NCBI GenBank assembly: GCA_947650155.1
Contig: CANSUS010000003.1
Span: 1-64,000, forward strand
Origin: an uncultured Lachnospiraceae bacterium
GTDB lineage: Bacteria > Bacillota > Clostridia > Lachnospirales > Lachnospiraceae
Reading direction: 5' to 3'
Length of the DNA stretch: 64,000 nt
Part shown: piece by piece, positions 3,890 through 55,438 of the stretch
Layout: each line of letters begins with the position of its first letter
How positions within the stretch are numbered: position 1 is the stretch's first letter
The notes under the pieces: generated by a model
Databases searched by the model: none
Seen by the model: only the letters and a program-made list of their open reading frames with translations
Told to the model about the DNA's origin: nothing
Made by a program: the position numbers and the translations under genes

Positions 3890-4822
3890 CTATACGATCG
3901 ACCTGAAATAATCTATCGTTTTCTTCAGCCCTTCCTCCAGCACTACCGTCGGTTCCCATCCCAGTTCCTGCTTTGCAAGCTCGATCACCGGCTTTCTCTG
4001 CATCGGATCATCCTGAGGCAGTTCCTTAAATATAATTTTGGACGTAGAACCGGTCAGCTCAATCACCTTCTCAGCAAGTTCTAACATTGTAAATTCTCCC
4101 GGATTTCCCATATTAACCGGCCCCGTAAAGCCTTCTCTGCTGTTCATCAACCGTACCATGCCTTCGATCAGATCATCCACATAGCAGAAACTTCTGGTCT
4201 GTTTTCCCGTACCATAAATAGTCACATCTTCATTTTTCAATGCCTGTACAATAAAATTGGATACTACCCTGCCGTCATTCGGATGCATCCGCGGCCCGTA
4301 AGTATTAAAAATACGCATCACCTTAATATCCACGCCATGCTGCCTGTGATAATCAAAAAATAAGGTTTCTGCCATCCTTTTGCCTTCATCATAGCATGAC
4401 CTGATTCCGATCGTATTCACACATCCTCTGTAACTCTCCGGCTGGGGATGAATTTCAGGGTCCCCATATACCTCGCTTGTACTTGCCTGCAATATTCTGG
4501 CATGTACACGTTTGGCAAGGCCTAACATATTCATAGCTCCGAACACACTGGTCTTTGCTGTTTTAATCGGATCATGCTGATAATGGATCGGACTTGCCGG
4601 ACAGGCAAGATTATAAATCTGATCCACTTCCACATAAAGCGGTTCCGTAATATCATGACGGATAAACTCAAAATACGGGTTTGTCATCAAATGTCTTATA
4701 TTATCTTTATTTCCGGTAAACAGATTATCTACGCATATAACGTCGTTTCCTTCCGCCAGCAGTCTCTCACATAAATGAGATCCTAAAAAACCTGCACCTC
4801 CCGTTACCAATACCCTGTTCAT
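3890..4822 (-). CDS. UDP-glucuronate decarboxylase (UDP-xylose synthase), SDR family
   Basis: A 310-residue extended short-chain dehydrogenase. The N-terminal [11 protein letters not shown] is the NAD-binding glycine motif. A YDEGKR block supplies the catalytic Tyr/Lys pair, and the block [12 protein letters not shown] with the late [12 protein letters not shown] are hallmarks of UDP-xylose synthases. These oxidise and decarboxylate UDP-glucuronate to UDP-xylose. The ATG at 4822 is chosen over upstream in-frame starts because GGGAG lies just before it and the glycine motif then sits at the expected distance. No UDP-glucose dehydrogenase specific for UDP-GlcA is seen in the window, so UDP-glucuronate must be supplied elsewhere. 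A hairpin shared with the leader at 55390-55419 lies just upstream. Confidence 0.88.
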
Positions 4823-4829
4823 ATTTGCT

Positions 4830-4859
4830 CCCATCCGCGCGCTTAAGCACACATACAAA
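4830..4859 (-). repeat. Leader hairpin block, copy 1 (partner at 55390-55419)
   Basis: On the minus strand this 30-nt block carries a 6-bp stem GTGTGC / GCGCGC around a TTAA loop (4837-4852), between the neuA-like stop and the decarboxylase start. A block matching at 24 of 30 positions lies before the GT4 gene at 54257-55378. The loop bases differ completely, while the one substitution in the stem keeps pairing (T-G versus T-A). Confidence 0.55.
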
Positions 4860-4867
4860 GTTTCAGC

Positions 4868-30039: not shown

Positions 30040-30081
30040 ATTCGCTCCTATCTGCTTTGCACGAACTGATTTTCAGGCGTC

Positions 30082-31560
30082 CTAAAAATTAAAATAAATA
30101 AACTCACTGATATTTGACAACGACAAAATACTCCATGTTAACAGTAAAACCGCCTCCGCCATTTTCCATCCATACCGTTTCGTATTCTCAAACTGAAGCG
30201 CGGCAGTCTGCTCTTCTGTATTTTTAAAAAACCATACGGCAAGCAGTAATACCGCCAGAAAAGCCAGCAGCAATACCGCCGGATAGGCGTCTATTATTCC
30301 CTGAATCCCCAGTCTTCCCAAAAGCCTCACTTCGGTCAGCTCATTAAAATACTCCACAAACGTCTGGTTCACAGGTCCAAACTGCCACTGCCCTATCTGC
30401 TTTAAAAGAAGCTTTTCATGCGCCACTTCAGGCACTCTGAAAATACTCCATAAGAAAACCACAATAATAAATGTCACGCCTCTTCGTACCGCCTTAGGAA
30501 TCTTTTGCAGCGCGGACTTAAAAATACGCTCCAGCACCATCAAAACACCATTTAAAATTCCCCACAAAACAAAAGTCCAATTTGCACCATGCCATAATCC
30601 GCTTATAAAAAAAACAAACAGCGTATTCAGATAAGTTCTGATCTTTCCTTTTCTGCTTCCCCCAAGAGGAATATAAATATATTTTGTAAAAAACTTTGTG
30701 AGTGTGATATGCCACCTGTCCCAAAAATCCGAAATGGATTCCGCTTTATAAGGAGAGTAGAAATTAAACGGCAGTTCGATACCAAACATCTGACCGATAC
30801 CGTATGCCATATCACAATACCCGCTGAAATCAAAATAAATCTGGAGCGTATAACACAGCATTGCAATGAATATACTCCCTGTATCATAGGCGTATGGCCG
30901 TGGAAACACCAAATCTGCAATCGGGGCAAGGGTATCTGCCAACAGCACTTTTTTTGCCATTCCCCTTGCAAATGCATAAATCCCTTTACTCAAGTTTACA
31001 TAATTTACTTTTTTCCGCTTTTCATCCCGGAACTGTGCTATCACTTTATCATGAGACGCAATGGGCCCCTGAATGATCAGGGGAAAAAACAGTGCATATG
31101 CCATATACTCCAAAAAAGGATACGGCTCTGCCTCTTCCCTGTAACAGTCTGCCACATATGCAAGCTGACGGAATGTATAAAAACTGATGCCCACCGGCAG
31201 TCCCAGCTGCAATAACTCTAAATCTGTTTTGCATACCGCATTGAGATTTTCTATAAAAAAATTGCTGTATTTGTAATACACTAAAAGACCAATATCAAAA
31301 AGGACTATAGAAATAAGCAAAAGCCGCTTTCGTGACGAAGAAGAAATTTTTCCCATCCACCGCACTCCCGCCTGATTGATCCCGATACTGCATAAAAAAA
31401 GCAGCAGATATTTCACACTGAACGCGCCGTAAAACCAGCAGGACATCCCGATCAGCCACAACAATCCCAGCTTATATTTTCCTGTCTTATTCATTCCATA
31501 ATACCCTGCCACTGCTATGGGCAGAAACAAAAGAATAAATATATAAGAATGAAACAGCAT
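30082..31560 (-). CDS. MBOAT-family membrane O-acyltransferase, second copy
   Basis: A 492-residue AlgI-like membrane protein. WDRWHITLTKFF near residue 278 and GLWHGANWTFVLWG near 315-330 are the MBOAT signature; the histidine in LWHGA is the expected catalytic residue. It begins with MLFHSYIFILLFLPIAV, typical of AlgI-type proteins. GAGG lies five bases before the ATG. It should pass an acyl (probably acetyl) group to the SGNH partner made from the next gene. Composition is closer to the surrounding sugar genes than that of the copy at 295-1728. Confidence 0.9.
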   Translation of the reverse strand: MLFHSYIFILLFLPIAVAGYYGMNKTGKYKLGLLWLIGMSCWFYGAFSVKYLLLFLCSIGINQAGVRWMGKISSSSRKRLLLISIVLFDIGLLVYYKYSNFFIENLNAVCKTDLELLQLGLPVGISFYTFRQLAYVADCYREEAEPYPFLEYMAYALFFPLIIQGPIASHDKVIAQFRDEKRKKVNYVNLSKGIYAFARGMAKKVLLADTLAPIADLVFPRPYAYDTGSIFIAMLCYTLQIYFDFSGYCDMAYGIGQMFGIELPFNFYSPYKAESISDFWDRWHITLTKFFTKYIYIPLGGSRKGKIRTYLNTLFVFFISGLWHGANWTFVLWGILNGVLMVLERIFKSALQKIPKAVRRGVTFIIVVFLWSIFRVPEVAHEKLLLKQIGQWQFGPVNQTFVEYFNELTEVRLLGRLGIQGIIDAYPAVLLLAFLAVLLLAVWFFKNTEEQTAALQFENTKRYGWKMAEAVLLLTWSILSLSNISEFIYFNF

Positions 31561-31588: not shown

Positions 31589-32527
31589 TTACCGGCCAAA
31601 GATCCTCTTTACCCTGCGGCCGCATCCCATTACGAATCTGCGCAGCTTCGCCTGAAAATGGCGGCGTTTTTTTTCATACTCGGATTCATCGTTTAAAATA
31701 AAATGTTGATATTCTTTCTGATGCTCTCTTAAATATTGCGGAAAACTTTCATCTATCTCAACTTTGACAAATTCCGCGTCTCTTCCGAAAATATCTTTTC
31801 CGTCTTTTATTTTATCTTCCACTTCCGATAATACGGAACGGCTGTTATACTCCTGATGAGCAGCGGATACTACCTTTTCTTTCACCCGCTTTTTCATGTC
31901 CGTTTCTCCAAATCCGCCCATGTATCCAAAATGCCATCCGCCATCCGCTACCCGGACGCCAATTTCCTTCCACTCAGGATAACGCAGTTCCCCAAACCGG
32001 ATATTTTTTTCCTTCATCAGTTTATAACTGCACATCTTCGTACCGATCCATTGTTTCTTTTCTACGCCTTCAAATTCTCCTGCATAGGAAAGCAGACTTC
32101 CTGATACTTCCTCCATATTCATATAACAATAGAACAGTCTCTGTGCAAAATGATAAATCTTATCCTCCTGAAACTTCTCTAATACTGCCCGGATCGCCTT
32201 CGGATTTGGAATTTCATCCAAATCGCTGAATAAAATAATATCTTCATCCTTACAGCCGGCAAGTCCTTTTGTACCGCCGTTTTTCTGATAAGTATCCCTC
32301 TCGTGCGTAGTCCCTTGCGGCGTATCCGAAACCACCACATGAATAATCCTGTCTTTAAATTCCGCAAACATTTCTTTATTTTCTTCATAATATAACGGTT
32401 TGGGCAGACCGGAAAAGGTCTCCGTCGCTTCACTGATTACAAACTTATCTACTACCGGCGAAAGTATCTTTAACCTTAATTTTAATAAATCCAGCTCATT
32501 AAAAAATTGAAAACAGTCGTATATCAT
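31589..32527 (-). CDS. GT17-family glycosyltransferase
   Basis: A 312-residue protein of glycosyltransferase family 17, otherwise known from beta-1,4-N-acetylglucosaminyltransferase III of animals. The start MIYDCFQFFNELDLLKLRLKI, SEATETFSGLPKPLYYEEN near residue 40 and DIILFSDLDEIPNPKAI near 95 (with the metal-binding acidic cluster) are the family marks. The second ATG, at 32527, is chosen: AGGG lies at proper distance before it and it gives the family N-terminus. Bacterial members occur in capsule loci with unknown donors. Confidence 0.8.
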   Translation of the reverse strand: MIYDCFQFFNELDLLKLRLKILSPVVDKFVISEATETFSGLPKPLYYEENKEMFAEFKDRIIHVVVSDTPQGTTHERDTYQKNGGTKGLAGCKDEDIILFSDLDEIPNPKAIRAVLEKFQEDKIYHFAQRLFYCYMNMEEVSGSLLSYAGEFEGVEKKQWIGTKMCSYKLMKEKNIRFGELRYPEWKEIGVRVADGGWHFGYMGGFGETDMKKRVKEKVVSAAHQEYNSRSVLSEVEDKIKDGKDIFGRDAEFVKVEIDESFPQYLREHQKEYQHFILNDESEYEKKRRHFQAKLRRFVMGCGRRVKRIFGR

Positions 32528-32560
32528 ATTCATCCCTATCTGCCTGCTTTAACAGGCTCC

Positions 32561-33331
32561 CTATTTCTCTTTTTCCGCCTTTTTACTCTTCAGATAAAGA
32601 TCCAATTTCTCATGCATCCTTCCAAGAAAAGGACGAATCAGTTTTTTTCTTCTGAAATCAGGATATTCAGCGTTCGTTCCACCCCATTTGTGAAAAATAA
32701 ACGGACGGATTCCCTGCACTTCCGGTATCATCTTTTCATGCCCGAAATACTTTGCCACCTCCACCGGCGCAATACGCATCCCCGCTTCCTCAAACAAATG
32801 CTTATTCTTACAGCAGATAAAAATATCCTCATTATAATATCCGTCCACCTGCACCCAGGGAATCTTTGCTTTTTTAGGGAACTCCATCAGCCTTTTGCTG
32901 CGGATCGAAACACTGTTTCCCACCCTGCTCGGATTCCCGTAAGCATCCCAGTAAGACGTCCCGTCCCCTTTATGAGGTTCCGGCCAGGGCGAACCGATAT
33001 AATCATATTCTAAAAATTCATCCCTCCACATATCAGGATTTACCACAAATCCGTCATAATGCACAAGCAGGGCAAACTCCGTATCAATATAGTCCCCCAT
33101 ATTATATACGGTTTCATAATTAAACCGGTCAATATTATCCAGTATGTCAATATGCTTGTATTTGATATTTTTCGGCAGATACCAGGGTTTTTTATGCGTA
33201 ATCAAAACCGCGTCGCCAAATGTAATCTCTCTCATGCTGTATTGCATTGCTTTTATCGTTTCCCGCACCAGCACACTGGTCATTGCAACAAGCGTCACAT
33301 TGGGAAGATATAATTTCTGTTTTGTTTCCAT
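32561..33331 (-). CDS. DUF5672 glycosyltransferase-like protein
   Basis: A 256-residue soluble protein of the DUF5672 family, thought to be glycosyltransferases of the GT-A type and frequent in surface-polysaccharide loci. Marks are LPNVTLVAMTSV at the start, LLVHYDGFVVNPDMW near residue 90, YDYIGSPWP near 110 and VGNSVSIRSKRLM near 138; the first resembles a nucleotide-binding strand and the second carries an acidic residue suited to metal binding. AGAGG lies five bases before the ATG. It lies 33 bases after the rhamnosidase gene. Donor and acceptor unknown. Confidence 0.75.
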   Translation of the reverse strand: METKQKLYLPNVTLVAMTSVLVRETIKAMQYSMREITFGDAVLITHKKPWYLPKNIKYKHIDILDNIDRFNYETVYNMGDYIDTEFALLVHYDGFVVNPDMWRDEFLEYDYIGSPWPEPHKGDGTSYWDAYGNPSRVGNSVSIRSKRLMEFPKKAKIPWVQVDGYYNEDIFICCKNKHLFEEAGMRIAPVEVAKYFGHEKMIPEVQGIRPFIFHKWGGTNAEYPDFRRKKLIRPFLGRMHEKLDLYLKSKKAEKEK

Positions 33332-54256: not shown

Positions 54257-55378
54257 TTATAAACCCGTCCCTTCCTTATCATATGAATCAGTAATTTTTT
54301 TGATTTCCTCCATATATTTCAGTACAACATTTTTTCTGTTGAACTCTTTTCGCATCTTCATCCTTCCATTTTCCCCCATCTGCATTTTCTTATTATAACG
54401 CAGATTTAAAAATTGTTCCACTGCCCTGACCAAATCCGGCGTGTTTCCCGGTTCTACCAGAAAACCTGTTATCCCTTCTTCCACAATTTCCCTGCAGCCG
54501 CTTATATTACTTGCAATCACAACCCTTCCTGCCGCGGCAGCTTCCATGCATACATTGGACATGCCTTCATGAAAAGAAGGATGCACCAGACACTGACATC
54601 TCCCCAGTACGGGACGGATATCCTGCAGCATGCCGTGATAGCAGATCACTCCCTTTTTTGTCAGTTCTTCCAGTCTGGCTTTGTAATCTTCTTCACAAAA
54701 CCCCAGAATATGAAATACCGTATCAGGATATTTTTTTCTGATCTGTTCCGCCATTTCCAGAAAATGATCGATCCCCTTCGCTTTCTGCACTCTGGAAATA
54801 AAAACGAACTCCACCGGTTTTTCAGCATCCGGAAAGGAAATGCGGTTGAACTCCTCAATGTTGACGCCGGAGCCGTTTACCAGCTCATACCTGCCTCTGC
54901 CGATTCCGGCTTCTTCAAATACTTTCCTGTTCTCCGCGTTTTGAAAAAATACTTTTTCCACTCTGAAAAGACCCGTTTTATACAGCATAAGAGAAATCTT
55001 TTTTAAGATTCCCCCGCCCTCAATTGCTACGCCAAGACCCGTAATCGTACAAATATACGGTATTTTCAGACTGCCCGCAGCCAGCCCGCCGTACACATTG
55101 GGCTTGATCGTATAGGTTAGCACCACATCCGGCCGGATCTTTTTCACAATCTTACGATAGGTCAGAAAAAGTTTGAAATCGTGAACCGGATTGGTTCCCC
55201 GCCTTTCCACCGGCACGTCGATCACTTCACACCCAAGATCCGCAATCTTTTTTGTTTCCTCTGTCACCGGAAGTATAACAACAACCCGGTAGCCTTCCTC
55301 AATCAGACGTTCCACCAGTTCCTTACGGAAATTGTAGATTGTCATATTATGATTTACAATAACTAATACTGTCTTCAT
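54257..55378 (-). CDS. GT4 family glycosyltransferase (early-step candidate)
   Basis: A 373-residue GT-B enzyme. [22 protein letters not shown] at the start, [17 protein letters not shown] and [12 protein letters not shown] are typical of the GT4 group that adds the second sugar onto undecaprenyl-PP-sugars (PglA-like). [21 protein letters not shown] near residue 280 is the donor motif. The ATG at 55378 is chosen on the N-terminal motif. The site upstream is modest (GGCAGG). It directly follows the small initiating transferase, fitting a second-step role (inference). A shared hairpin lies in its leader. Confidence 0.87.
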
Positions 55379-55389
55379 ACCTGCCTGTC

Positions 55390-55419
55390 CCCATCTGCGT
55401 GCGCTGGCACACATACAAA
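55390..55419 (-). repeat. Leader hairpin block, copy 2 (partner at 4830-4859)
   Basis: On the minus strand a 6-bp stem GTGTGC / GCACGC encloses a CAGC loop (55397-55412), followed by GATGGG as in copy 1. It lies between the small initiating transferase stop and the GT4 start. Relative to the downstream genes the two copies are in different reading frames, so RNA-level rather than protein-level conservation is likely. Confidence 0.55.
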
Positions 55420-55438
55420 TCAGGAAGTTTTTCCCGTC

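Follow-up and report, generated by a model that had tools for sequence, protein, structure and literature searches.

A palindromic repeat with a Shine-Dalgarno-like tail, probably mobile, located before start codons in Lachnospiraceae

Hairpin units in the window

The DNA under study, hereafter the window, is the whole analysed stretch of 64,000 nucleotides from an uncultured Lachnospiraceae bacterium. Two genes on its minus strand are each preceded by a short hairpin. One codes for an NAD-dependent sugar epimerase/dehydratase (3890-4822; PF01370/PF16363), the ATG at 4822 being its likely start codon as judged from the sequence, and the other for a glycosyltransferase of the group 1/family-4 type (54257-55378; PF00534/PF13692), likely to start at the ATG at 55378. 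The sequence-only reading had described two matching 30-nt blocks at these places, and the description holds: 24 of the 30 positions are identical between block 1 (minus strand, 4859 down to 4830, TTTGTATGTGTGC-TTAA-GCGCGC-G-GATGGG) and block 2 (minus strand, 55419 down to 55390, TTTGTATGTGTGC-CAGC-GCACGC-A-GATGGG). In each, the stem has six base pairs and the loop four bases. None of the loop bases is shared, the single stem change (T-G to T-A) keeps the pair, and one further base differs directly after the stem. The reported spacing was likewise reproduced, the first G of GATGGG being located 14 bases from the start codon at 4822-4820 and 18 bases from that at 55378-55376. A joint pattern with up to three mismatches identified only these two blocks in the window, and nothing in 100 shuffles of it.

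Scanning with covariance model R2 gave 43.5 bits (E 1.3e-9, filters off) for the 41-nt core of copy 1 (4823-4863, minus strand), in which the stem arms are at 4852-4847 and 4842-4837, the loop at 4846-4843 and GATGGGAG at 4835-4828. The 41-nt core of copy 2, with its CTGATTTG box (55383-55423, minus strand), scored 38.4 bits (E 3.9e-8); its stem arms are at 55412-55407 and 55402-55397 and GATGGG at 55395-55390, and a second in-frame ATG of the glycosyltransferase gene falls inside this copy. The same model detected a third copy, absent from the sequence-only reading, at 32528-32568 (minus strand; 26.3 bits, E 1e-4), with the stem GCCTGT-TAAA-GCAGGC and the tail AGATAGGG, at the start of an ORF at 31589-32533. 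A possible decayed copy at 30040-30089 (minus strand; 12.9 bits, E 0.62, R2) retains the tail GCAGATAGGAGCGAAT before a GTG start and has no visible 6-bp stem.

Copy number and architecture of the unit

A 26-nt form of the pattern, allowing three mismatches at most, matched 13 places in the 4.0-Mb host genome (G000) and none for the reversed control, indicating that the blocks are far beyond chance. Covariance model R1, built from these 13 matches, gave 119 matches in the host genome at E ≤ 10, of which 97 were examined (the 21 weaker ones and C34:28788, located outside the fetched stretches, were set aside). A search with the left half only added 15 places belonging to a young subfamily overlooked by R1; 13 of these were viewed, and the other two, on C109, are known as pattern matches only. 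The total for the host genome is about 112 copies, that is, the 97 examined R1 matches plus the 15 young ones. The covariance-model scan of the genome and its relatives, suggested beforehand, has yielded a large family, with more copies in other Lachnospiraceae.

The full unit of about 61-67 nt consists of a first hairpin (H1, present in about one-third of the copies), the CTGATTTG box, a 6-bp hairpin (H2) and the tail AGATGGGAG, followed after about 5 nt by the start codon; shorter copies comprise H2 and the tail. The examined copies of the host genome read roughly (C)CTGATTTG, NNN, a 6-bp stem with a 4-nt loop, RGAYRGGAG, about 5 nt and ATG, the stem letters being variable. The tail looks like a Shine-Dalgarno sequence. 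H1, often TGAAA...TTTCA, precedes the CTGATTTG box in 34 of the 97 own copies and in 35 of 78 foreign ones, for which 6.1 and 3.4, respectively, are expected from shuffles.

A known Rfam family for the unit was rejected: Rfam covariance models gave no match at gathering in the window, and none of the nine matches at E ≤ 5 in seven loci overlaps a unit. No recognisable account of this hairpin repeat was met among the titles and abstract openings searched, which does not imply its absence from print.

Base pairing of the H2 hairpin

Pairing was examined in an alignment of 137 copies, 78 foreign and 59 own. The foreign copies, many of them from the same few genomes, were collected with a pattern requiring GATGGGAG and ATG and are uninformative on placement; R1 was trained on own copies, and pair counts of the latter are therefore biased to the stem. 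In the whole set, 97.2% of the H2 cells are paired, all six pairs show changes on both sides, and the covariation score was reached by none of 500 shuffles. The one stem position left free in the pattern is paired in 77 of 81 matches of a multi-species scan (see below). On the sense strand, G-U cells outnumber A-C cells by 47 to 11 (15 to 5 among the 78 copies chosen independently of R1), as expected of a sense-strand RNA or a single strand. As proposed, the hairpin is conserved as RNA, outside the reading frame, and stands before start codons; this applies far more generally than to the two genes for which it was suggested. In addition, UUUG is conserved 3 nt before the H2 stem.

The Shine-Dalgarno accessibility estimated by folding was 0.47; shuffling of the hairpin gave 0.44 (P 0.048), and the value for other genes was 0.50. 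The idea that H2 improves exposure of this site was dropped for hardly any effect. An outer helix TTTG/CAAA, spotted by eye, was also dropped, as it was not predicted on the 137 copies.

Location of copies relative to genes

Most copies are co-oriented with a gene, whose start codon lies about 5 nt beyond the end of the unit. Directly behind 87 of the 97 own copies comes an ORF of 60 codons or more, with ATG as the first codon in 84 cases; random places in the same loci and on the same strand would give 27.4, and six were found on the opposite strand at the 5' side of the copy. A pattern without tail or ATG detected 25 places, all already in the R1 list. At 22 of them, an ORF of 60 or more codons follows, and at the other three a shorter frame of 46 (at a contig end), 57 or 59 codons. 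The location at start codons is therefore not an artefact of including the tail in the model. With no ATG required, 51 of 63 arrays in genome G113 run up to an ORF of 60 codons or more (30 or more for those running off the stretch), and some of the other 12 continue into a unit of another type. For 76 of the 97 own copies, the 200 nt upstream contain the end of a co-directional ORF (70 codons or longer), a count taken with no control; many own copies look intercistronic, as in the window.

Families were searched for 30 of the 87 downstream proteins. At the thresholds applied, matches were obtained for 22, including carbamate kinase, NrdR, NrdD, PurM, DnaB helicase, a histidine kinase, alpha-L-fucosidase, a type I restriction specificity subunit and a MetH-like protein, and none for the other eight. 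No shared function or pathway is evident among the 22 matched proteins of the 30 scanned, and a pathway regulon was rejected on account of their many kinds.

The gene behind one copy (L102 4130-4170, corresponding to G000 C48:20794-20834) codes for a putative RNase with NYN and OST-HTH/LOTUS domains.

Distribution among genomes

When a single genome from each of 84,980 species was scanned with a pattern, at least 112 stretches matched. Among the 80 loci listed, 73 are titled Lachnospiraceae or its genera, family membership being confirmed for six of those genera, with Roseburia as a further genus of Lachnospiraceae; two belong to Clostridium sp. KNHs205 (Clostridiaceae), three to metagenome-assembled genomes titled only "bacterium" or "Bacillota", and the remaining two, from Myceligenerans and a Phycisphaerae metagenome-assembled genome, look like chance matches. 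As far as these sequence matches go, the repeat family appears to occur almost only in Lachnospiraceae.

Within Lachnospiraceae, matches at E ≤ 0.001 were found in at least 18 of 250 genomes, a lower bound with 26 candidates scored per genome; most carry one to five, and a few carry many. The copy-rich genomes are the host (G000), G113, G244, G274, G132 and G095. At E ≤ 0.01, at least 153 matches were counted in G113 and 37 in G244, and at E ≤ 0.1, 44 in G274 and three in G273. In G001 and G002, two sister species of the host, 14 and nine weak matches were obtained at E ≤ 1, the best one at 2.7e-4. Some of these look real; the presence of the repeat in sister species speaks against the mobile reading.

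Presence and absence of the unit at individual sites

Presence and absence at orthologous sites were compared between species only. Seven genes with aligned starts and 77-93% identity in G001 all lack the hairpin, as judged by eye; their leaders mostly carry a plain GGAG-type site, and that of nrdR keeps a GCAGATGGG tail. At the best-aligned site, the host reads stop codon, 100 nt and ATG, and G001 reads TAA-TGGAGGAATGAGCT-ATG; the native 14-nt site is replaced by the 100 nt and not simply split, which counts against mobility. The region around C17:26993 is collinear with G001, which has no unit there, with flanks that align less well. The two stretches of G274 that match element-led genes of the host (at least 75%) also carry no copy there, although G274 has 44. 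The unit is present before homologous genes of two genomes in three cases, C115/L199 (96% identity), C4:31204/L202 (56%) and C3:69613/L301 (48.5%); L199, L202 and L301 were fetched because they bear a unit. In the C115/L199 pair, H2 is common to both, and H1 is absent from L199.

In the nrdR leaders of three genomes (L027, L256 and L328), a tail of the GGCAG(A)TGGG or GCAGATGGG type follows a short possible hairpin of other letters; this tail may be an old shared site.

The 65-nt cores of the 13 young copies are 97.5% identical on average, and 21 of the 78 pairs are identical. No pair among their flanks (100-300 nt upstream and 5-305 nt downstream) was detected by blastn at 1e-5. Eight of the 13 precede ORFs of at least 60 codons, and four are at an ORF end, before an apparently decayed gene or near no gene. 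The remaining young copy, L383, lies in frame inside a 285-codon ORF (975-1832). Two full-length homologues were found, in G211 and G242, and about 21 residues are missing from both at the site of the copy. Units of 61-67 nt form tandem arrays, the longest in G113 comprising five units; an array of three is present in Anaerocolumna sp. AGMB13025 (L202). Three L409 matches were left out as repeats of L446.

No enzyme moving the unit was found in a search confined to Y1_Tnp. A phage or plasmid vehicle was dropped after blastn of the young unit against phage and plasmid records gave no match and a pattern search gave one match among viral contigs.

Discussion

The family is probably a mobile palindromic repeat of Lachnospiraceae that carries its own Shine-Dalgarno sequence and is tolerated by replacing the ribosome-binding site of the gene behind it. 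This reading draws on the copy number, structure, covariation, position and patchiness of the units, and on the tandem arrays, element-free sites and one in-frame insertion in a gene, as observed above. Both blocks noted at first are probably old copies of this dispersed mobile repeat, among the approximately 112 in the genome. Of the two outcomes named beforehand as speaking against the RNA element, a lack of further copies and of covariation has proved false, and a mere remnant of recombination comes closer to the truth, given that the blocks are copies of a dispersed repeat.

The unit would move as DNA, via an enzyme or by recombination, and may prefer places just 3' of a Shine-Dalgarno-like sequence and before TGAA. 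It would enter near a native Shine-Dalgarno sequence, and its own GGGAG would then serve the start codon, allowing the gene to survive the insertion; on this account, the tail of the unit would be used for translation initiation. H2 may be retained for movement, in the form of single-stranded hairpins, or for protection or processing of mRNA.

The flanks give some indications of such a preference. For eight single copies (seven young ones and L370), the best Shine-Dalgarno-like pairing of the left flank averages -6.6 kcal, against -3.5 kcal at random (P 0.0002 for the mean, with one strong outlier; 0.50 against 0.28 at ≤ -5 kcal), and the copy inside a gene, one of the eight, has a left-flank pairing of -7.3. 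The signal is weak for the 34 H1-bearing copies, many of them in tandem (P 0.036; 0.24 against 0.18 at ≤ -6). Furthermore, NTGAA is located at the start of 40 of the 87 element-led genes, against 25 of 98 in the background (P 0.005), and the H1 unit often begins with TTGAA; on these grounds a TGAA repeat at both ends of the unit is possible. The Shine-Dalgarno-like left flanks and TGAA are leads, not proof. A stronger version, in which the element aims at initiation sites, entering between Shine-Dalgarno sequence and start codon at TGAA and swapping in a structured site, with the translation of about 3% of the genes of one species rewired (from about 112 copies, with about one gene per kb assumed), can be put forward only tentatively.

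Small bacterial repeats are usually regarded as intergenic debris or terminators. In Rickettsia, palindromic elements are inserted in frame in coding genes, adding residues; the L383 ORF is the one such case here and an exception, since the usual site of the present unit is just before the start codon. The BOX, RUP and SPRITE repeats of Streptococcus pneumoniae are likewise dispersed stem-loop repeats of a Firmicute, BOX having tandem modules; they are deemed parasitic by the authors of their description (PMC3049150) and sometimes overlap coding genes. They are over-represented between convergent genes (PMC3049150), however, whereas the present units stand before starts and carry a likely ribosome-binding site.

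A different interpretation is that the unit is a functional cis-regulatory RNA, in which a trans-acting factor binds H2 beside the Shine-Dalgarno sequence, with a large regulon or more stable mRNAs as the outcome; in a variant, H2 flags the conserved UUUG for processing by RNase Y or a similar enzyme, a proposal based on the cleavage preference of RNase Y. The strong covariation, the excess of G-U over A-C cells (47 to 11), the close location before starts, the stem pairing kept in old copies and the UUUG 3 nt before the stem are what such an RNA would show, and the three homologous genes with a unit in different genomes point the same way. On the other hand, the 22 family-matched downstream proteins of the 30 scanned, ranging from DnaB helicase to a restriction specificity subunit, have no common function, seven orthologues in the sister species are without the hairpin, the distribution across genera is patchy, one copy lies inside a coding gene, and the gain in Shine-Dalgarno accessibility by folding is almost nil (0.47 against 0.44). 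A cis-regulatory role, the processing variant included, is rather unlikely as the explanation of the family.

There is a small chance that the units are classical REP elements moved by a Y1 transposase of the RAYT/IS200 type. The GTAG/CGTC super-families of REP share with the present units the small palindromes with alternative complementary stems, G-T pairs, a high and uneven copy number, clusters or dimers and units within genes, according to the REP paper cited here (PMC3733652), whose text does not contain the words "Firmicutes" and "Clostridi-". The high copy number of a short palindrome is indeed found here, with about 112 copies in the host and at least 153 in G113 at E ≤ 0.01. The units nevertheless have no GTAG/CGTC tag, GTAG being beside the stem in two and CGTC in five of the 137 copies, and they are located at start codons with a Shine-Dalgarno-like tail. 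A Y1 transposase as the mover was rejected, as Y1_Tnp (PF01797) has no match at E ≤ 0.001 in four of the six copy-rich genomes (G000, G113, G095 and G274); the other two have two (G244) and 13 (G132).

Slim, too, is the prospect that the unit acts as a translational attenuator, with H1 spanning the frame of a short leader peptide (TTG/GTG AAA ... TGA) by which initiation at the H2 tail is controlled. By eye, several subfamilies do read TTG or GTG AAA and a stop just before H2, often with Shine-Dalgarno-like left flanks, but the frames are not conserved and the leader peptide was rejected: some copies run through H2 or have no start, and a unit of the Anaerocolumna array has lost one base in each H1 arm, which keeps the pairing and changes the frame (also by eye). 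Moreover, most copies lack H1 altogether, its count being 34 among the 97 own copies and 35 among the 78 foreign ones.

The antiterminator hairpin proposed in the sequence-only reading, bound by the NusG paralogue LoaP for antitermination of polysaccharide operons, was not supported and is extremely unlikely, on account of the loop type and co-occurrence. Both noted copies do precede sugar-metabolism genes of a polysaccharide cluster, and a LoaP-family tandem pair, both at or above the NCBIfam cut-off, is present in the host genome (G000 C101:6818-7814); the pair lies on contig C101, not on that of the window, in a draft assembly. Like the present unit, the LoaP-dependent dfn hairpin is a small RNA hairpin in a leader, but the part of its description cited here (PMC12691694) gives it a UNCG loop and a position in a 5' leader with a downstream terminator, and contains no mention of a Shine-Dalgarno tail, which the present units have. 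A UNCG loop is found in one of the 137 copies. Among the copy-rich genomes, G000 and G095 have LoaP at or above the curated cut-off and the other four (G113, G244, G132 and G274) have none above it. Conversely, G014 has LoaP and two weak R1 matches (best E 6e-4), with none at E ≤ 0.001 for R2. Copies are also located between genes or before unrelated ones.

If the family is a mobile repeat carrying its own ribosome-binding site, it repeatedly takes over this site of unrelated genes, core ones such as those for DnaB helicase and PurM included, in a lineage-specific manner. It would then supply Lachnospiraceae with a natural route to rapid change in translation, and some hundred leaders would be at hand for comparison, the puzzle being what moves the unit and how start codons are found. 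For annotation, caution is advisable, in that start codons called inside units may be wrong.

Other repeats were observed in the vicinity of some units. A sister subfamily of the same plan with other boxes, e.g., GATTGTTTG, the hairpin TGCCGC..GGCGGCA and the tail TGTTTGGAAGG, stands upstream of some units (L389, L096, L078 and L079). A second dispersed inverted repeat of about 65 nt, GTGTGAGAAGTACTTC ... GAAGTACTAAGTCTCACAC, adjoins several units of the host genome; it was found near position 1540 of L016, L017 and L024 (G000 C19, C28 and C34) and, in addition, on the upstream side of those at C8:5758 and C71:9100.
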